Origin: Halalkaliarchaeum sp. AArc-CO
Lineage (GTDB): Archaea > Halobacteriota > Halobacteria > Halobacteriales > Haloferacaceae
Direction of reading: 5' to 3'
DNA length: 64,000 nt
Assembly: GCF_024972735.1 (NCBI RefSeq)
Contig: NZ_CP087723.1
Span: 744,001-808,000 of the forward strand
The notes beneath the pieces were generated by a model, which saw only the letters and a program-made list of their open reading frames with translations, was not told the DNA's origin and searched no databases. The position numbers and the translations under genes are program-made. Each line of letters opens with the position of its first letter. The stretch's first letter is position 1. Below, piece after piece: positions 7,655 to 15,276 of the stretch.

Positions 7655-8323
7655 CTACTCTGCGTCGGTGTTGGCGTCGCCGTCGACCTGGGTCTCGCCG
7701 TCGGGGTTTTCGACCTCGACGTCGAAGCTGTCCGAGAGCGTCACCGTATCGTCCTCGTTCTGGTTGCCGTCGGCGTCGACGGTCAACTCGAGTTCCACCG
7801 TCGTCGTCTTCGAGTCCCCCGCCTCGAGCGAACTGTCGCTGAAGTCGTCCTCGGTGATGTCGGTGCCGACGCCGGTGATGTCGTGTTGGATGAATGTGAT
7901 TTCAAAAGTCCCCTCTTTTTCAGAAAATTCACTAGTACCCCCTTTGACTTCGTCAACAGAGTCACTACTGTCGTCTTCTGTTCCTTCAAGGGTTACATCG
8001 TATACTAGGTCTGTCTGTTCGCCCACACTCGCCTCGAGCGTTACCGAGACCACGTCGACGCCGTCGGCGAAGTTTTCCCAATCGATCTCGATCTGCGGTG
8101 CGACGTACACCGCCGACACTTCGCCGTCGTTGTTCTCGACGGTCGGCGTGTCGGCGGCGGTGAACTCCGAGGCGTCGGCGTCGACGGCGGCCGTCGAGCC
8201 GGCGAGATGATTCGCGATCCCGGCCGCCAGCAGGGTGGTGCCGGCGGTGGTCCCCAGTCCCCGGAGGAGTCCTCTTCGTGTGCGGTTCGCCTGTCCGTGT
8301 GAATCGACTTGCTCGTCAGTCAT
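7655..8323 (-). CDS. Tat-type secreted acidic protein of the envelope cluster
   Basis: Protein of 222 aa from the ATG at 8323; an upstream in-frame ATG at 8401 would add 26 residues and bury the signal. The N-terminus has a twin-arginine motif RTRRGLLRGLG followed by a hydrophobic stretch and an Ala-rich cleavage region (GSTAAVDA), so it is probably exported folded by Tat. The mature part is Asp/Glu/Thr/Ser-rich, without cysteine or a C-terminal anchor, and looks like a beta-rich extracellular domain. Bases about 7890-8025, encoding a Ser/Asp/Glu-rich loop (EDDSSDSVDEVKGG), are clearly more A/T-rich than the flanks, as if exchanged by recombination. No family recognised. It shares strand and likely envelope role with the next minus-strand gene. 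Confidence 0.65.
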   Translation of the reverse strand: MTDEQVDSHGQANRTRRGLLRGLGTTAGTTLLAAGIANHLAGSTAAVDADASEFTAADTPTVENNDGEVSAVYVAPQIEIDWENFADGVDVVSVTLEASVGEQTDLVYDVTLEGTEDDSSDSVDEVKGGTSEFSEKEGTFEITFIQHDITGVGTDITEDDFSDSSLEAGDSKTTTVELELTVDADGNQNEDDTVTLSDSFDVEVENPDGETQVDGDANTDAE

Positions 8324-8769
8324 CGTTGTGTAGCGATCGGTCGCTACCCCACTGGCTCGATCCCTCTCGGGACGCTCCGACGCTCCGTCTCCGTGAGTCA
8401 TCGCCGAACGCGACGCATCGTGCCGCGTGTCATCCCCCGACGGCGATTCCCTGCCTGTTGTCTTTCCTTCCTTCCTTGTATTCTCGAGATTCCGTAGAGT
8501 ATTTAGTAGTTTTTATTGTGTAAAAAATACCTCAGTTGAAACGTTCGCGGAGAGTCAGCTGTCGTCGACGTGATCGGTTCAGGCCCGGCTGGGCCTGGTC
8601 GTCGATGCCTCGTTCCTCCCCAGCCGCAGCCGTGTCGCCGTCGCGAGCGGTGAAACCGCGAGCCGGACGACACGGCTGCCCTCCGCGCGTTTCTCGCGCG
8701 CGCGCCGAATTTAAAGGGGATCCGCGATGCTGTCCGGTGGTACTTACACTTATCCGACCGTCGGGTTCG
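8324..8769. other. 446-bp intergenic region upstream of the Tat-secreted gene
   Basis: No convincing gene. An A/T-rich block around 8490-8530 (minus-strand AATAAAAACTACTAAATAC) is the likely promoter of the minus-strand gene and would give a leader of over 100 nt to the start at 8323. A purine/pyrimidine-skewed GGAAGGAAGGAAAG stretch and a CG-alternating segment (about 8690-8705) followed by AATTTAAAGG are the only other notable elements. Confidence 0.4.
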
Positions 8770-9504
8770 CTACCCGTTCGAACCCCAGACCGGGTTCGAA
8801 ACCGTACGGTCGCCGATCGTGACCTTGATGATCTGGCCTCCGCCGTCACGGAGGGAAACCTTCTGATTTTCGGGTATCTCGATCTCTTTCTCGGTGGAAG
8901 TCGGTTCACCCTGGCCCTTTTTGTACGTCACCGTCACGGTGTAGTTTCCGGGATCTCCAGAGACGAACACGTTTCCGGTCCCTTTGAACTCCACGGTGAG
9001 ATCCCCTTCGTCGCCGTCGACAGTGCTCACGTTCTCCAGTGTCACGGTCTCCGTTCCGGTAGTCGGCCCGCAATCGACCTCGACTGTCCGAGTGATCTCG
9101 AAGCTCGCGCCGCCCGCCCCGCCTTCGATGTCGAGTTCGACCACGCCAGTTCTTTCGACCGCTGTACACTCGGCTGTTGCGGCCGTCCCTTCGCCGACAC
9201 CGATCGCCGTCGATTCGAGTTCTACTGTGTCGGCGTCGATCACGTCGTTCCCGTCGGCCACCGTGACGTCCAATTCGTCCATCCCGCTCGCGAACTGGTT
9301 CGTGATCGTCAACAGGTGGATTCGGTCCTCTTCGGACAGTTCGTCGCCTACCGTTTCGATTCCGACGTACGCCTCGTCGTCAGGAACGACGCTCACGTCG
9401 ACGCCCCGATCGGCGGTCATCGCCGAGAAGCCGCCGGTCCCGGCGACTAAAAATAGGATTCCCAGCACCGCGAACGCGACGCTCACTCGCGTGAGTGGGC
9501 TCAC
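8770..9504 (-). CDS. DUF1102-like exported protein
   Basis: Protein of 244 aa starting with GTG at 9504. The start is fixed by a perfect Shine-Dalgarno sequence GGAGGTGATC (9509-9518) four bases upstream. Residues 6-28 form a hydrophobic signal or anchor (VAFAVLGILFLVAGTGGFSAM), followed by TADRGVDVSVVPDDEAYVGI, the N-terminal pattern of DUF1102 proteins as I remember it, then LLTITNQF. Two cysteines about 32 residues apart (TAECTAVER and EVDCGPTTG) could form a disulfide outside the cell. The rest is beta-rich. It overlaps the stop codon of a 17-codon ORF and is probably transcribed with the DUF7344 gene upstream. Likely a surface or biofilm-type structural protein; the exact role is unknown. 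Confidence 0.6.
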   Translation of the reverse strand: MSPLTRVSVAFAVLGILFLVAGTGGFSAMTADRGVDVSVVPDDEAYVGIETVGDELSEEDRIHLLTITNQFASGMDELDVTVADGNDVIDADTVELESTAIGVGEGTAATAECTAVERTGVVELDIEGGAGGASFEITRTVEVDCGPTTGTETVTLENVSTVDGDEGDLTVEFKGTGNVFVSGDPGNYTVTVTYKKGQGEPTSTEKEIEIPENQKVSLRDGGGQIIKVTIGDRTVSNPVWGSNG

Positions 9505-9554
9505 CGCTGATCACCTCCCGTGTTCGCACTCGACCCCGTGTGATCGTCCGTCAT
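9501..9554 (-). CDS. Candidate 17-codon leader ORF coupled to the DUF1102-like gene
   Basis: ATG at 9554 opens a reading frame for MTDDHTGSSANTGGDQR. A strong SD-like GGGGGAGA (9556-9563) lies directly before it, and its TGA overlaps the next GTG as GTGA. The perfect SD of the downstream gene lies inside this ORF, so ribosomes translating it would open or compete for that site. It may be a real micro-gene or only a coupling device; the peptide itself has no recognisable feature. Confidence 0.35.
   Translation of the reverse strand: MTDDHTGSSANTGGDQR
9509..9518 (-). promoter_or_regulatory. Perfect Shine-Dalgarno sequence for the DUF1102-like gene
   Basis: GGAGGTGATC on the minus strand is fully complementary to the archaeal 16S rRNA 3' end (GATCACCTCC) and ends four bases before the GTG at 9504. 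This is rare in haloarchaea, where most messages are leaderless, and shows internal initiation within an operon. Confidence 0.75.
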
Positions 9555-9628
9555 ATCTCCCCCAGGTTCACGTTCCGTGTCAGTTTCGCCAGTGGCTGTC
9601 GTGGGTGACTGCCGCGTCGATCCGCTTC

Positions 9629-10222
9629 TCAGGACGACTCCCGTTCCATCTCCGGCGGCACGTCGCCGGCTCCCAGCCGCATCTCGGAGGTGTAGTAGCG
9701 GTGCGCGAGCGCCGACACCAGGAACGCGACCACGATGAACACCCCCCACGAGAGGTCCGGCAACAGCGTGAACGGGTACACCCCCAGCCAGACGGCGGCG
9801 TACAGCGCCGCCGACACCAGCGAGAGGCCGAGGTAGTACTCGCTCCAGGGAATCTCGTTGCCGTGGATGACGTCCATGTAGATCTCGACGTCCTCCATCG
9901 CTGGCGTAGGCTCGACCACCCCGCGGTCCTTGTTGAACGAGACGATCCCCGCCTCGTCCATCTTCGGCAGGTGCGACTGCTGTAAGGCGGTGTACACCCG
10001 CTTGCGCTCGTCGTAGGACACCTCCCCGAGATCCACCTCGTTCTCCCAGGCGGCGACCTGCTCGGCCAGCGTCCCCAGATCGACCTGCTCGTCTGCGCCC
10101 TCCGCGTCGCGTTTGAGCGCGTGCAACGCGTACCGCCGGCGCCGGTTGGCTAACACCTCGAACAACTCGTTTTCGCTTACGTGGCCGGTCCCCCCGCGGC
10201 CTGTGGCTGACGCGACACCCAT
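9629..10222 (-). CDS. DUF7344-type winged-helix protein with two membrane helices
   Basis: Protein of 197 aa. Residues about 17-100 form a winged helix-turn-helix of the DUF7344 type: NELFEVLANRRRRYALHALK, a helix ending LAEQVAAWE, then RKRVYTALQQSHLPKMDEAGIV and a DRGVVEPTP wing. After an EIYMDVIHGNEIPWSEYYLGLSL linker come two hydrophobic helices (about 135-180) and a short tail. The layout implies a DNA-binding domain tethered to the membrane, perhaps reporting envelope state. A TATA-like TTTAATAG lies about 30 bases before the ATG. A paralogue sits at 14674-15276 at the far side of the same cluster. The genes downstream on this strand encode exported proteins, the most obvious regulatory targets (inference). 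Confidence 0.75.
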   Translation of the reverse strand: MGVASATGRGGTGHVSENELFEVLANRRRRYALHALKRDAEGADEQVDLGTLAEQVAAWENEVDLGEVSYDERKRVYTALQQSHLPKMDEAGIVSFNKDRGVVEPTPAMEDVEIYMDVIHGNEIPWSEYYLGLSLVSAALYAAVWLGVYPFTLLPDLSWGVFIVVAFLVSALAHRYYTSEMRLGAGDVPPEMERESS

Positions 10223-10246
10223 CTCGGTTCACATGTTGCTCGGAAT

Positions 10247-10256
10247 ACTATTAAAG
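10247..10256 (-). promoter_or_regulatory. TATA-like box of the first DUF7344 gene
   Basis: TCTTTAATAG-type sequence on the minus strand is centred about 30 bases before the ATG at 10222, consistent with a leaderless or very short-leader transcript. Confidence 0.5.
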
Positions 10257-10674
10257 ATAAACGACTGTTTTACTTTCTCCCCCGTTCAGGCGGGGCTTGA
10301 GAATCACTGACAGAGAATGCCTTCCCGACCGGGCTCGCGTGCGTTGCGCTATCTCCACTGACATTTCCGTTTAATCGCCGATTAGCTGGCGATTGGATCC
10401 CCCGAATATCGGATTCAGCTCCGACGCGCCGCCCGAGTGGGTATTTCAACCGCGTATACACCGGTGGTGTGTCGCACTCCGGAGTCGTTCGGCAACCGGT
10501 CGGTTCGGGACGCTCTCGTGTCGACGGGTCGGTGGGCATAAAACGTCTCAAGGTCACCCTGAGCGACACCGAACGAAAAAACCGTTCCGGAGCTCTCGTT
10601 CAAACGGATCAATACCTTATATGTTGGACGGATAGGTCGAACCGAACGCGAACCCGAGGACTCGGTAGCACACG
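10257..10674. other. Divergent intergenic region between the two arms of the envelope cluster
   Basis: No gene seen. On the right, CTTATATG (about 10616-10623) is a good TATA box for the plus-strand operon beginning at 10675 and implies a leader of about 25-30 nt. The middle part (10270-10610) has no recognised motif; with a DNA-binding gene diverging from it, it is a likely place for operators. Confidence 0.4.
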
Positions 10675-12351
10675 ATGGACCGGACGCATTTCGTCCTCCT
10701 TGCGGCTGCGCTCGCAAGCGGCCTCGTGGTAGTGGCGACTGCCGGAGCGCCGATCGACGCGCTCGCGTCCGGGGACCGAATCGACGTGATCGGGCCGGAC
10801 GACGGGGGGGACGCGACCGGGCATCTGGAGCTCGAACCACATGACGGACCGAACGGCAAGTACGCGTTCGTAAACGACGACGACGAGATCGAGATCGCCA
10901 TCGACGCTTCCAATCCGAACATCGACGGGGAGCGCGGCGTCAACGTCGAAGCGGGGACGACGATACACGACGTGTTCACGGTGACGTACAACGCATCGAC
11001 GACCGAAAACGACACGCCGGTGACGGTGTGGATCGAACACGGCGACGATCCGGACACCGACGTCGCGGAAAGCGAACTACTCACCTTCACCAGCGACGGC
11101 AAATCGATCGAAGGCGAGAACGCGAACCTCACCCTGTCCCCGAACGAGACGGCGTCGATCGGCCTGCACGTCGACTCGACCGGCGCAGATCCGGGCCTGG
11201 TGACGAGTAACTTCACGATTCGCGCCCAGTTCCCCACGGAACCGGAGACGGACGACCGGGCGGTGACGACGACCCGGACGAGTTTCTCCTTCACCTCGCC
11301 GGCGCCGACCCTGTGTGAGGGGACGGTGTACAACGCCAGGGGCGGCGAGACGACGCGCGTCGACGCCTGTTCCGTGGAGATCGTCGACGGTGTTACGCTC
11401 GAGTCGGCGGCGTTCACGACGTCATCCGACGACACTGTCGACGTCCGCCTCGAAGGGAGCCCAACGCAGCTCTCCGACCGGCCTGCGCTCGATCCGGCCG
11501 GGACCGGTGCCGCCCCGCTCGGTTACTTCACCGCCGAGTTCGAGCCCCACGCCGGAGACGCGACGTCGGTGACGGACGTCAGTTACGACGTCTTCGTGTC
11601 GTCGGAACGACTCGCGACGCCCGGTATCGAGACGCCCGGAACGGTACGCAACCCCGATCCGATCGACGAACTCGATCCGGCGTCGATTCGACTGTACGGC
11701 TTCGATCCGGTCAACGAGAGCTGGATATCCCTCGAAACGGAAGTCGTGGAAACGACCGACGAAGGCGTGCTCCTCCGAACCGACGCGGGTCGGTTCCCGG
11801 TGTACGCTGTCGGCGTCGACGCCCCGGTCCTGCGCGTCGAGGAGACGAGTCTCGATCCGTCGACCGTCGCGGTCGACGAACCGGCGACGGTCACTGTGAC
11901 GCTCGCAAACGATGGTCTCGCCGGAGGGGACGCCAACCTCACTCTGCGGGCGAACGAAACGGTGATCGCGACGACAACGGTCGCAGTTCCGGCAGGAAAC
12001 CGGACGGTCGCCACCGTCGAGGCAGTGTTCGACGAGCCGGGTGTCTACGAGATAACCGTCGACGGCGAGGCTGTCGGGGAGCTCACCGTCGAGGCGCCGC
12101 CGATCGGGGATCCGCCGGAAACCGAGGAGCCGTCGGTCACGACGCCGGGGGCGGCGGATTCGACCCCCTCCACCCCGGACGATCCCGAGGTGACGCCCGA
12201 ACCAGAGGACACCCCGGCCGAGATCGACGAACCGTTCGACGGGATCGAGGAGCCCGCCGGGATCGATCTCGAGCGGACGGTCGGACTCGTTTCGTTGCTC
12301 GTCATCGTCCTGGCAACGACGTATCTCGTCAGGCGGATGCCGCGGAGATGA
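10675..12351 (+). CDS. Large secreted, C-terminally membrane-anchored protein with DUF1102-like and CARDB-like domains
   Basis: Protein of 558 aa. Residues 5-27 form a signal sequence. Residues about 40-205 resemble DUF1102: LEPHDGPNGKYAFV, then ERGVNVEAGTTIHDVFTVTYN, a pattern I remember from that family. A beta-rich middle region contains one cysteine pair (TLCEGT and DACSVEI). Residues about 384-475 look like a CARDB-type adhesion module (VEETSLDPSTVAVDEPATVTVTL). A Pro/Glu/Thr-rich stalk (about 478-525) leads to a C-terminal helix (VGLVSLLVIVLATTYLV, about 538-554) and a basic stop (RRMPRR). It is therefore a surface protein on a stalk. The next gene is a rhomboid-type intramembrane protease, which could release it. 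Confidence 0.65.
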   Translation: MDRTHFVLLAAALASGLVVVATAGAPIDALASGDRIDVIGPDDGGDATGHLELEPHDGPNGKYAFVNDDDEIEIAIDASNPNIDGERGVNVEAGTTIHDVFTVTYNASTTENDTPVTVWIEHGDDPDTDVAESELLTFTSDGKSIEGENANLTLSPNETASIGLHVDSTGADPGLVTSNFTIRAQFPTEPETDDRAVTTTRTSFSFTSPAPTLCEGTVYNARGGETTRVDACSVEIVDGVTLESAAFTTSSDDTVDVRLEGSPTQLSDRPALDPAGTGAAPLGYFTAEFEPHAGDATSVTDVSYDVFVSSERLATPGIETPGTVRNPDPIDELDPASIRLYGFDPVNESWISLETEVVETTDEGVLLRTDAGRFPVYAVGVDAPVLRVEETSLDPSTVAVDEPATVTVTLANDGLAGGDANLTLRANETVIATTTVAVPAGNRTVATVEAVFDEPGVYEITVDGEAVGELTVEAPPIGDPPETEEPSVTTPGAADSTPSTPDDPEVTPEPEDTPAEIDEPFDGIEEPAGIDLERTVGLVSLLVIVLATTYLVRRMPRR

Positions 12352-12362
12352 GGCAATAATTC

Positions 12363-13262
12363 ATGAACGGTGCACGCGATACGGGAACCCGAGCCCTGAA
12401 TGACGGCGAACTGCCGCCGTTTTCTGCGGTGCTCTGGCGGCTCGTCTCACTCCGGGACAGTGCGCTGCTCGCAGTTTTCCCCCTCGTGCTCGTGGGAACC
12501 GCTCTGCTCCCGGCGGAAACGAAGCGCACACTCGTGTTTGCGTACACCGACCCGACGGTGATCACTGCGTACGCCTCCCACTTCGTTCATTTCCACGTCG
12601 ATCATCTCCTCGCGAACCTGCTCGGATACCTGCTCGTGGTGCCGACGACGTATCTCCTTTCGATCTTTGCAGATCGTCGCCGACTGTTCTGGACCATGTT
12701 CGCCACCGTACTGCTGGCGGGGCCGTTCGTCCTCTCGGGGCTGAACCTCGCGGTCCCCCGGGACGCGATCGGGTACGGGAGCTCGGGTGTCATCATGGCG
12801 TTTTTCGGCATCCTTCCGGTCGCGCTGTACAACTACGCTCGTCCGTTTTTCGTCTCCGACCTGCGAGCCCGTGATCTGCCCGTGCTGTTTTTCCTCGTGG
12901 TCGGGATCATCAGCGGAATCGTCCTCCCGCGGTCGGACGCGACGGTGGCGATAGCGGTCGTCTCCGGACTCCTCGCCGCCGGCTACGGTGGATTTATTCT
13001 CGTCCGGGAACGTCGTGCCCGGAACAGATTGGGATCCCCGTCACGTCCGGTACGACCGTTCGGATACGTCGAACTCCCCCTCGTCGGCGGGGTGTTGCTC
13101 GTCGGCTATCCCCTCGTCGGATTCCCGTCGGAACTCGTCGCTGCTAACCGCGTCGTCAACCTCTACGTGCACTTCCTGGGTTTTGCGATCGCGTTCGTCG
13201 CCGCGTACGTCGGGGAAGTAACTCACGTACTGGCAGAGACGACCGGAGCGGACGCGGAGTGA
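12363..13262 (+). CDS. Rhomboid-family intramembrane serine protease
   Basis: Integral membrane protein of 299 aa with about six helices. The rhomboid catalytic features are present: HFVHFHVDHLLANLLGY with the H81-x3-N85 pair, the GSSG motif with Ser141 (YGSSGVIMAFFG), and the last-helix His270 in NLYVHFLGFAIAF. Rhomboids cleave single-pass membrane proteins within or next to the membrane helix. The gene begins 11 bases after the stop of the stalked surface protein and precedes the DUF5305 gene by about 60 bases, so the three form one transcription unit. Overall similarity to bacterial GlpG is low; the motif order and spacing support the call. The obvious substrate candidates are its operon neighbours. 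Confidence 0.72.
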   Translation: MNGARDTGTRALNDGELPPFSAVLWRLVSLRDSALLAVFPLVLVGTALLPAETKRTLVFAYTDPTVITAYASHFVHFHVDHLLANLLGYLLVVPTTYLLSIFADRRRLFWTMFATVLLAGPFVLSGLNLAVPRDAIGYGSSGVIMAFFGILPVALYNYARPFFVSDLRARDLPVLFFLVVGIISGIVLPRSDATVAIAVVSGLLAAGYGGFILVRERRARNRLGSPSRPVRPFGYVELPLVGGVLLVGYPLVGFPSELVAANRVVNLYVHFLGFAIAFVAAYVGEVTHVLAETTGADAE

Positions 13263-13320
13263 GTTCGCGACCGGCCGAAGCTATAAGACGACGACCGGCA
13301 AACGGTGAAAAGTAACAACA

Positions 13321-14670
13321 ATGTCACGTCGTCGGGGCATGCGGGGGGACAGAGCCGTGAACGAACGGACACTCCGGGTTCGCGCGTTCGTCGACTCGAA
13401 CTGGGGCGTCCTGCTTGCGGTGTTTCTGCTGGTGGCGCTCGCGGGGGGCTGGTTCGCCTACGGCGCGTACGTCGATCCTCCGGAGGAGACGACGACCGAA
13501 ACGGTCTCCTCCTGGAGCGTCGACGCGGAGTGGAGCCACAGTGCGACCGTCACGGAGGACAACACCGTGTTCCCGGTCGGCACCGAACTCGACGACCGGA
13601 CTACCTACTTCGGCGCGATCGCGCCGACCCTCTCGGGAGCGTTCGAAGTCGGCTACACCGCGACGGACGCCTCGGACGTCTCGATCGACACGGAGAGCAC
13701 GCTCGTCGCGCAGTCGGTAGACGAAGAGACGGAGACGGTTTACTGGTCGGAAACTGACGTGCTGGATTCGGCGTCGGCCGACGGGCTCGATCCGGACGGG
13801 ACCGTCGAGACGACGTTCTCGATCAACACCACCGCCCTCGACGAGCGGATCGGGCAGATCCGCGAGGAAATCGGTGCCGATCCCGGCACGCTCGAACTGT
13901 TCGTCGAGACGACAGTAACGATCGAGGGCACGTTCGACGGCGACCGGGAGACGGCGGAACTGACCTACGAGCTGCCGCTCGACCTGGACGGAACGACATA
14001 CCGCGTCGACGATCCCGGTTTCCTGACCGAGGAGTTCGAGCGGACCGAACCCGTCTCCGAGCCGGCAGACCCCGGGCTTTTGGGTGGCGTCCTCGCGCCG
14101 ATTCTCCTTTTCGTCGGTCTGGTGGGCGGGGCAGGCGTCGCCGCCGGGCGTCACACCGGCCGGTTCGCGGTCGACGACGCCGAACGCGACTGGCTCGCGT
14201 TCCGCGACGACAGGTCCGAGTTCGACGAGTGGGTGACCCGGATCTCGCTGCCCGGTGATGCGCTCGAACGCCCGACTGCTCGCGCCGCATCGCTACAGGA
14301 TCTGGTCGACTTCGCGATCGACAACTCCGCCGGAGTCATCGAGGACCCCGAACGGAACACGTTCTACGTGATCACCGACGAGTACGTCTACACGTACGAA
14401 CCGCCCGCGGTTCCCACCCCTGGTCGGGATCGTGACGGCAGCGACGAGGAGCTCCTGCAGCCCAAAAGCGAGAATACACCGATGTCCGACGGCGTGTTCG
14501 AGTCCGAGGAGATCGTCTCCGCGTCCGTCCCGAAAACCGGGACAGCGGAGGACGACGTTTCGGCTGGGGATGAGGAGAACGGAACCGGGGCGGCCGACGG
14601 ACAGCCCTCCGGCTCCGTCGACGGAAACGGTGGCTCGGATAACAACCGACGTTCGGACGGCGGCTCCTAG
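13321..14670 (+). CDS. DUF5305-type membrane protein
   Basis: Protein of 449 aa with a short basic N-terminus, a first helix (about 28-50, WGVLLAVFLLVALAGGWFAYG), an external domain of about 200 residues, a second helix (about 253-276) and a cytoplasmic part. The external part begins WSVDAEWSHSATVTEDNTVFPVG and contains DRTTYFGAIAPTLSGAFEVGY, which I recognise as the haloarchaeal DUF5305 family. The cytoplasmic part contains DWLAFRDDRSEFDEWVTRISLP and a low-complexity Asp/Gly/Ser tail. In other haloarchaea this family sits beside SipW-like signal peptidases; none is seen here and a rhomboid protease takes that position. Role unknown, presumably envelope or secretion related. A GTG at 13357 is a possible alternative start. 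Confidence 0.68.
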   Translation: MSRRRGMRGDRAVNERTLRVRAFVDSNWGVLLAVFLLVALAGGWFAYGAYVDPPEETTTETVSSWSVDAEWSHSATVTEDNTVFPVGTELDDRTTYFGAIAPTLSGAFEVGYTATDASDVSIDTESTLVAQSVDEETETVYWSETDVLDSASADGLDPDGTVETTFSINTTALDERIGQIREEIGADPGTLELFVETTVTIEGTFDGDRETAELTYELPLDLDGTTYRVDDPGFLTEEFERTEPVSEPADPGLLGGVLAPILLFVGLVGGAGVAAGRHTGRFAVDDAERDWLAFRDDRSEFDEWVTRISLPGDALERPTARAASLQDLVDFAIDNSAGVIEDPERNTFYVITDEYVYTYEPPAVPTPGRDRDGSDEELLQPKSENTPMSDGVFESEEIVSASVPKTGTAEDDVSAGDEENGTGAADGQPSGSVDGNGGSDNNRRSDGGS

Positions 14671-14673
14671 CCG

Positions 14674-15276
14674 CTATCCCGCGTCTCCGTCGGCCCGGAG
14701 ACGTGCAAACCCGCCGGTCGTTCGCCGAACCGACCACACGTGGATCACGGCCGATCCCAGGAATCCGACGACGACGCCCGCGACCCAGGCTTCGACCGGG
14801 AGCAGCGTAAACGGGTACAGTTCGAGCGAGACCAGCACGAACACCGCGAGTGTAACCAGCGACAGCCCGAGGTAGTAGCCGCTCCAGGAGATTTCCTCCG
14901 CGCCGACGACGTCGAGGTAGACGTCGTACGTCTCGATCCCCGGCGACGGGTCGACGACCCCCTGGTCCTCGTCGAACCGGACGAGATCGGCCTCGTCGAG
15001 CCGGGGGAGGTGAACCTGCTGTAGGGACGTGTACACCCGATGACGCTCGCGTTCGGTTATCTGCTCGACGGTGGTGTCGTGTTCCCACGCGGCCACTCGA
15101 TCCGCGAGATCCCCGACCGACACGGGCCCGTCGGCGACGGACAACGCGTGGAGGGCGTACCTGCGTCGTTCGTTGCGAAGGAGCTCGTAGACGTCCTGTG
15201 TGTCCTGGCGCTGACGCTTATCCCGCTGCAGTAGCTGTCCCCCCGTCGCTTCACTCGACGACCCACGCACTACCAC
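14674..15276 (-). CDS. Second DUF7344-type winged-helix protein with two membrane helices
   Basis: Protein of 200 aa, clearly paralogous to the product of 9629-10222. Shared blocks include RRRYALHAL, RVAAWEHD against QVAAWENE, RVYTSLQQVHLPRLDEADLV, the QGVVDPSP wing, GYYLGLSLVT and LYPFTLLP. The first about 110 residues form the winged helix, two membrane helices follow (about 137-182), and the end is short and Arg/Ala-rich. It faces the DUF5305 gene tail to tail, three bases apart. The two paralogues bracket the cluster, each on the minus strand, which suggests duplication and a paired regulatory role. The exact start is uncertain within about 30 residues because the N-terminal region is not conserved. 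Confidence 0.72.
   Translation of the reverse strand: MVVRGSSSEATGGQLLQRDKRQRQDTQDVYELLRNERRRYALHALSVADGPVSVGDLADRVAAWEHDTTVEQITERERHRVYTSLQQVHLPRLDEADLVRFDEDQGVVDPSPGIETYDVYLDVVGAEEISWSGYYLGLSLVTLAVFVLVSLELYPFTLLPVEAWVAGVVVGFLGSAVIHVWSVRRTTGGFARLRADGDAG

Follow-up and report, generated by a model that had tools for sequence, protein, structure and literature searches.

What does a rhomboid protease do among genes for archaeal surface proteins, and which protein does it cut? The question is raised by a gene cluster at positions 7655-15276 of a 64,000-nucleotide stretch of the Halalkaliarchaeum sp. AArc-CO genome (contig NZ_CP087723.1, positions 744,001 to 808,000). This whole stretch is referred to as the window. 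A preliminary description had listed seven genes in the cluster, called A to G here, and all seven were confirmed as open reading frames (ORFs) at the positions it gave. It had also regarded them as an envelope cluster, and correctly so. The window holds a variant of the haloarchaeal TasA-like Taf fimbria locus. Sequence comparisons make it probable that the C-terminus of D, the TafF-type surface protein of this locus, is the target of a dedicated processing enzyme, the rhomboid E encoded by the adjoining gene. E is probably an archaeal analogue of rhombosortase that serves a fimbrial anchor.

The rhomboid E and the C-terminal tail of D

E (12363-13262, + strand) belongs to the rhomboid protease superfamily and is rhombosortase-like. 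Its match to the Pfam Rhomboid model is weak (0.002, below the cut-off). The predicted structure of E, with a mean predicted local distance difference test score (pLDDT) of 87, was compared with known folds. A Foldseek search gave no match at an E-value < 0.001, and a second aligner gave a clear placement on GlpG, with Z up to 13.7 and a root mean square deviation of 2.9 Å over 165 residues; the best chain that is neither rhomboid nor iRhom reached 6.9. Seventy-odd loci were gathered around relatives of E, and their genes were called and labelled for a neighbourhood comparison. The active site proposed in the preliminary description holds up in these relatives. The predicted catalytic residues H81 (12603-12605), N85 (12615-12617), S141 (12783-12785) and H270 (13170-13172) are unchanged in 37/37 operon-linked relatives, and S141 and H270 are also unchanged in the 34 other relatives. 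S141 sits in GxSG and H270 in HxxG, and E looks active. The best NCBIfam match of E is the rhombosortase model TIGR03902 (E-value 0.0011, below the cut-off). Five family members match this model at all, with 15-31 bits, and none reaches its equivalog cut-off of 84 bits.

D (10675-12351, + strand) is a TafF-like stalked surface protein with a C-terminal anchor, as had been proposed, and is the predicted substrate of E. It matches PF06510 (E-value 5.7e-8) and the TafF model NF052523, the latter with 28.4 bits (E-value 9.5e-7) in a search of the genome, below the equivalog cut-off; hmmscan of the window copy gave no TafF. Close relatives of D match TafF with E-values down to 4.5e-15. Pfam places a DUF1102 domain at residues 61-185 (10855-11229) and CARDB-like domains, among them a CARDB-type β-sandwich at residues 384-462 (11824-12060; 3.5e-4), which also matches the CARDB domain of PF1109 in structure (Z 11.1, 94 residues). 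The fold matches of D are mainly confined to the CARDB domain, and no TasA is among the matches listed. The CARDB domain is followed by the stalk, at about residues 476-525, which has low pLDDT and is unstructured.

The C-terminus of D is EEPAGIDLERTVGLVSLLVIVLATTYLVRRMPRR. This EPxG-CTERM (12250-12348) consists of EPAGI at residues 526-530 (12250-12264), a transmembrane helix at 532-554 and the basic end RRMPRR. D and its counterparts share this tripartite tail, with the motif EP[ASGF]G[IF], a transmembrane helix and RR. In an alignment of 20 relatives E526 and R553 are invariant, P527 and G529 are conserved in at least 90%, and R554 is nearly invariant. Two glycines, as in the GlyGly of the rhombosortase-type tail, are found in some members only. 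When a profile of the tail was searched against this genome D was the sole match (E-value 4.5e-19; next 0.3). This suggests one enzyme with one substrate, and the gene for D adjoins that for E. In bacteria with rhombosortase, the single target of a genome tends to be encoded beside the enzyme (PMC3237569; Haft and Varghese 2011), and the adjacency of D and E fits this logic.

Two known tails were tried on D and rejected. D was rejected as a PGF-CTERM substrate of archaeosortase because it has no match to TIGR04126 even at E-values up to 10. The NCBIfam CoaP_CTERM model weakly matched one large cargo protein; nothing in this genome passes its cut-off, and D is not matched at all.

Tail and rhomboid in related loci

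The association of tail and rhomboid was measured with a strict tail pattern (E, P or A, a small residue, G or A, a hydrophobic residue, then a C-terminal helix), which was run on the 5900 frames of the loci set. The pattern was found in 40/5900 frames, 37 of which lie within 600 base pairs (bp) of a member of the E-type rhomboid family. Two of the three matches away from a rhomboid look like non-coding frames, and the third, in locus L143, is a real exception. Among coding-like frames ending in a helix, the tail is present in 37/68 near a rhomboid versus 3/209 elsewhere; these loci were gathered by rhomboid similarity or by DUF5305 and are related, so that the p-value of the test overstates their independence. 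A second set of 71 rhomboid loci from named genomes was examined with a looser pattern. There a tail-bearing neighbour is found in 52/71 loci, many of whose species overlap with the first set. Lineage by lineage, most of the independent rhomboid-bearing groups have E-x-x-G-hydrophobic before a helix, including the forms ELAGF, EVGGF and EIGGF.

The tail is also carried by giant surface proteins of 1800-2600 residues (L072, L083, L089, L185, L195, L205 and L224). These contain choice-of-anchor D repeats (up to 13 in some) or other repeats, and their genes are in tandem with, or often convergent to, a gene of the E rhomboid family. As the EPxG tail occurs on cargo other than TafF in both layouts, the link between tail and rhomboid is more than operon inheritance. 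In places the giant proteins and D have stalk modules in common (CARDB-like, TIGR04213), but as whole proteins the giants are not orthologues of D. Judged from these shared segments, the tail could have travelled with a stalk module.

The anchor was also compared where the rhomboid is missing, using 87 DUF5305 loci, 46 with a rhomboid and 41 without. A C-anchored DUF1102/Taf protein is encoded in 37/46 loci with a rhomboid versus 6/41 without. Two of these six proteins end in PGF-CTERM (L125 and L138; TIGR04126 E-values 2.1e-11 and 9.2e-7). In L146 there is an EPxG tail and the rhomboid is broken into two frames, in L143 there is an EPxG tail with no neighbouring rhomboid, and in L132 and L142 the tails are of other kinds. 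The TafF proteins that pass the NCBIfam cut-off, probably from Haloarcula (judged by a position beside Halomicrobium), have several C-terminal helices rather than EPxG. L240 and L248 (genomes G016 and G106) have only rhomboid fragments, downstream of a multi-helix TafF. On the tree of SipW, the signal peptidase of the locus, the presence of the rhomboid changes about nine times.

Other variants were seen in these loci. The remnants in L240 and L248 look like decaying copies left after a change of anchor type. L080 and L082, which depart from the pattern of tail with rhomboid, encode a TafF with several helices and a rhomboid frame that starts late. The TafF-type proteins of L068, L070 and L073, in which the motif is internal, still adjoin an intact rhomboid. 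L101 and L103 encode longer and more distant rhomboids, with reading frames of some 535-550 residues; nearby proteins end in QSVPGF, a helix and RR, possibly a further rhomboid-tail pair.

A candidate processing pair and its alternatives

The preliminary description had proposed a shedding or assembly system. The direction of that proposal stands, and its better-supported form is a C-terminal processing pair of one enzyme and one substrate. D would be exported with a type I topology, the single helix of its tail crossing the membrane from EPAGI just outside to RR inside. A position just outside the membrane is where rhomboids cut type I substrates. The co-occurrence and the invariant catalytic residues suggest that the EPxG[IF] tail is recognised by E, which would cut at or close to the small residue and the glycine that precede the helix. 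Rhomboids favour a small residue before the cut and a hydrophobic residue two positions after it; by analogy, the likeliest cut in EPAGI would be between A and G. The cut would swap the protein anchor for another; a lipid is the likeliest, by comparison with rhombosortase and archaeosortase A. D may then be the base for polymerisation of TafA/TafE/TafC-type subunits, release from the cell being the alternative. In Bacillus, SipW cuts the N-terminal signals of fibre subunits, and the SipW encoded elsewhere in this genome would do the same here. The DUF7344 proteins probably regulate the genes of the locus, and may do so through the membrane-linked feedback proposed in the preliminary description.

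Several observations weigh against this reading. E falls far short of the rhombosortase cut-off. An intact rhomboid lies near a tail-less TafF in L086 (multi-helix) and L066 (no motif), while L143 has the tail and no adjacent rhomboid. In L068, L070 and L073 the EIGGF motif and helix are followed by a further 130-150 residues or so, unlike a classic sorting tail. Finally, archaeosortase A (ArtA) is encoded in this genome, and the EPxG tail resembles PGF-CTERM. This last point also speaks for the view that archaeosortase A accepts the EPxG tail as a variant substrate and that the rhomboid does other work, for example quality control or the cutting of another member of the locus. The resemblance shows in tails such as EPGGFG and EPAGFG, and the domain before the tail, TIGR04213, is shared with PGF-CTERM proteins. 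However, the TIGR04126 model that fails on D does match the PGF-CTERM relatives of TafF; these forms are found where the rhomboid is absent, whereas the EPxG form almost always adjoins a rhomboid, on unrelated cargo too. We therefore regard a role of archaeosortase A at this tail as improbable.

Release of D is somewhat easier to defend, if still unlikely. E would then be a sheddase that cuts D at EPxG and sets free D and any fibre on it, for a biofilm matrix or for detachment. Classical rhomboids outside the rhombosortase group release ectodomains, no gene for a lipid-transfer partner was seen in the locus, and the co-occurrence and substrate evidence is the same as for a processed anchor. 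But rhombosortase likewise has no known separate transferase (PMC6219818). Anchoring is favoured over shedding because the rhomboid-less equivalents of D end in PGF-CTERM or in several helices, and either type of end keeps the protein on the cell, so that the shared role looks like anchoring. It is very improbable that the locus is a surface-protein island whose genes merely travel together, with no specific link between rhomboid and D. Some relatives of the rhomboid do lack any tail-bearing neighbour, but the tail is common to unrelated cargo, the layouts are both convergent and tandem, and tail and rhomboid have been gained and lost jointly more than once.

The proposed pair resembles rhombosortase and GlyGly-CTERM in joining a rhomboid-family protease with a tripartite tail of a Gly-containing motif, a helix and basic residues. 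The rhombosortase cut differs from an A-G cut in leaving a glycine at the C-terminus, and this glycine then receives a glycerophosphoethanolamine group (Vibrio cholerae VesB, PMC6219818). The present pair differs in being archaeal, in having EPxG[IF] rather than GlyGly and in its TIGR03902 score far below the cut-off. E is moreover linked to a TasA-like fimbria, whereas rhombosortase is linked to cargo of type II secretion. Archaeosortase A and PGF-CTERM offer a haloarchaeal likeness, with a Pro-Gly-Phe motif, a helix and a basic end (PMC7157517), and this signal serves the TafF-type proteins of the rhomboid-less loci L125 and L138. ArtA, however, has many targets and is a cysteine enzyme unrelated to rhomboids, while the enzyme encoded beside D is a rhomboid. 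Rho1 and Rho2 of Haloferax volcanii are haloarchaeal rhomboids that affect adhesion and biofilm, and the 2025 study of them left their natural substrates still to be found (PMC11985538). H. volcanii differs in having no DUF5305 (the control genomes were negative).

The comparison gives an entire family of haloarchaeal rhomboids a candidate substrate and site, which makes the substrate question directly testable. It suggests that surface anchoring by a rhombosortase-like route, which has so far been described in bacteria, is also used by archaea, and that one fimbria type can be anchored in interchangeable ways, by a rhomboid tail, by an archaeosortase tail or by plain membrane helices. Such alternatives offer a natural comparison for the role of C-terminal processing in a surface fibre. 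A broader proposal, which we make tentatively, is that haloarchaea have a second C-terminal sorting route beside archaeosortase A. In this route rhomboid-type enzymes would recognise EPxG-CTERM, each serving one adjoining protein (a fimbrial base or a giant adhesin-like protein) and transferring it to lipid, and tails and enzymes would have been exchanged in evolution with PGF-CTERM/archaeosortase and with multi-helix anchors.

The system had been thought possibly undescribed. This does not hold for the Taf fimbrial proteins, which NCBIfam already names; the new part, stated with reserve, is the dedicated rhomboid/EPxG-CTERM pair, for which no description was found in the open-licence literature. 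A search of open-licence papers, which is weak evidence of absence, likewise found none on DUF5305, DUF1102, DUF7344, the Taf names or an archaeal rhomboid sorting tail.

The Taf locus and the other genes of the cluster

Conservation of the neighbourhood had been put forward as a test of the preliminary description, and the neighbourhood is conserved across Halobacteria. The usual gene order begins with TafC-like, a divergent DUF7344 and one to three small Taf pilins, followed by D, the rhomboid, an archaeal SipW-like signal peptidase of about 387 residues (TIGR02228 3.7e-15, SipW 3.8e-8) and DUF5305. The peptidase gene is typically less than 200 bp from that of the rhomboid. The claim that DUF5305/DUF1102 genes accompany SipW-like peptidases was sound for the Halobacteria loci. 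Named hosts are all Halobacteria and include Halorubrum, Halobellus, Haloplanus, Halolamina, Halobacterium, Natronomonas and Halomicrobium. The recurrence of a DUF1102 protein with rhomboid, SipW and DUF5305 across Halobacteria is far beyond chance.

At the window locus, SipW is missing between E and F, as are the small pilins between C and D. The gap between E and F (13263-13320, + strand) is where the neighbourhood comparison places the gene for the SipW-like peptidase in relatives. A rhomboid taking the place of SipW, as first suggested, was ruled out, because most rhomboid loci have both genes side by side and this genome keeps a matching SipW at C2:2112462-2113613, 1.36 Mb from the window. 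That SipW is 63% identical over its full length to the standard SipW and belongs to the rhomboid-linked SipW clade, where the Halorubrum-type genes are its sister group (support 100/96). TafE/TafA-like pilins are encoded at C2:2.538-2.546 Mb, and there is a second pilin set at about 1.232-1.243 Mb. With SipW and pilins present elsewhere in the genome, the Taf gene set is dispersed and the rhomboid is no replacement for SipW. Among the pilins encoded in this genome, one matches PDB 9p0a 'Pilin' (6.1e-12).

The region at 2.538-2.546 Mb (L116:7705-14721) encodes TafE/TafA-like proteins of 189, 201 and 440 residues, the last of which matches TafC in its C-terminal part. It also holds a 308-residue relative, with transposase-like frames nearby. 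A second Taf-like system lies at C2:1.232-1.250 Mb (L093, L114) and consists of DUF7344, four larger DUF1102/TafE-type proteins and its own SipW and DUF5305, with no rhomboid.

B, D and pilins elsewhere in this genome match the NCBIfam families TafA, TafC, TafE and TafF (NF052520-NF052523), although all matches in this genome are below the equivalog cut-offs. The system resembles the TasA/TapA/SipW fibres of Bacillus and the archaeal bundling pili AbpA in its small exported subunits, SipW-type signals and SipW-like peptidase; donor-strand fibres would be a further likeness by analogy only. It differs in having a C-anchored TafF-type protein, a rhomboid, DUF5305 and DUF7344, and no TapA was seen.

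B (8770-9504, - strand) is a TafC-like fimbrial protein with a TasA/SipW-type N-terminus (GTGGFSAMTADR; NF052521 E-value 2.9e-12, below the equivalog cut-off). In the loci comparison its family recurs next to DUF7344 in most relatives. F (13321-14670, or from a GTG at 13305, + strand) is a DUF5305 membrane protein (PF17231 E-value 3.2e-55). Its family was found in 158/194 Halobacteria genomes surveyed, in most cases together with SipW and in many with no rhomboid. A (7655-8401, - strand) is an ORF for an exported acidic protein with a Tat-like N-terminus (RRGLLRGLG). It has no Pfam or NCBIfam family above cut-off and no relative among the loci compared, and is outside the conserved locus.

C (9629-10222, - strand; PF24035 E-value 4.9e-31) and G (14674-15276, - strand; PF24035 E-value 1.3e-28) are both DUF7344 membrane proteins, as previously assigned. 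In each, the winged-helix DUF7344 domain is followed by C-terminal hydrophobic helices. A winged helix with membrane helices is the plan of transmembrane transcription regulators (PMC10269533). C, the divergent neighbour, is a conserved member of the locus in most relatives, where one DUF7344 gene is standard; in most relatives a second DUF7344 gene was not seen at the position of G. This genome has 13 copies of DUF7344, including pairs at 723873/724658 and 869959/870768.

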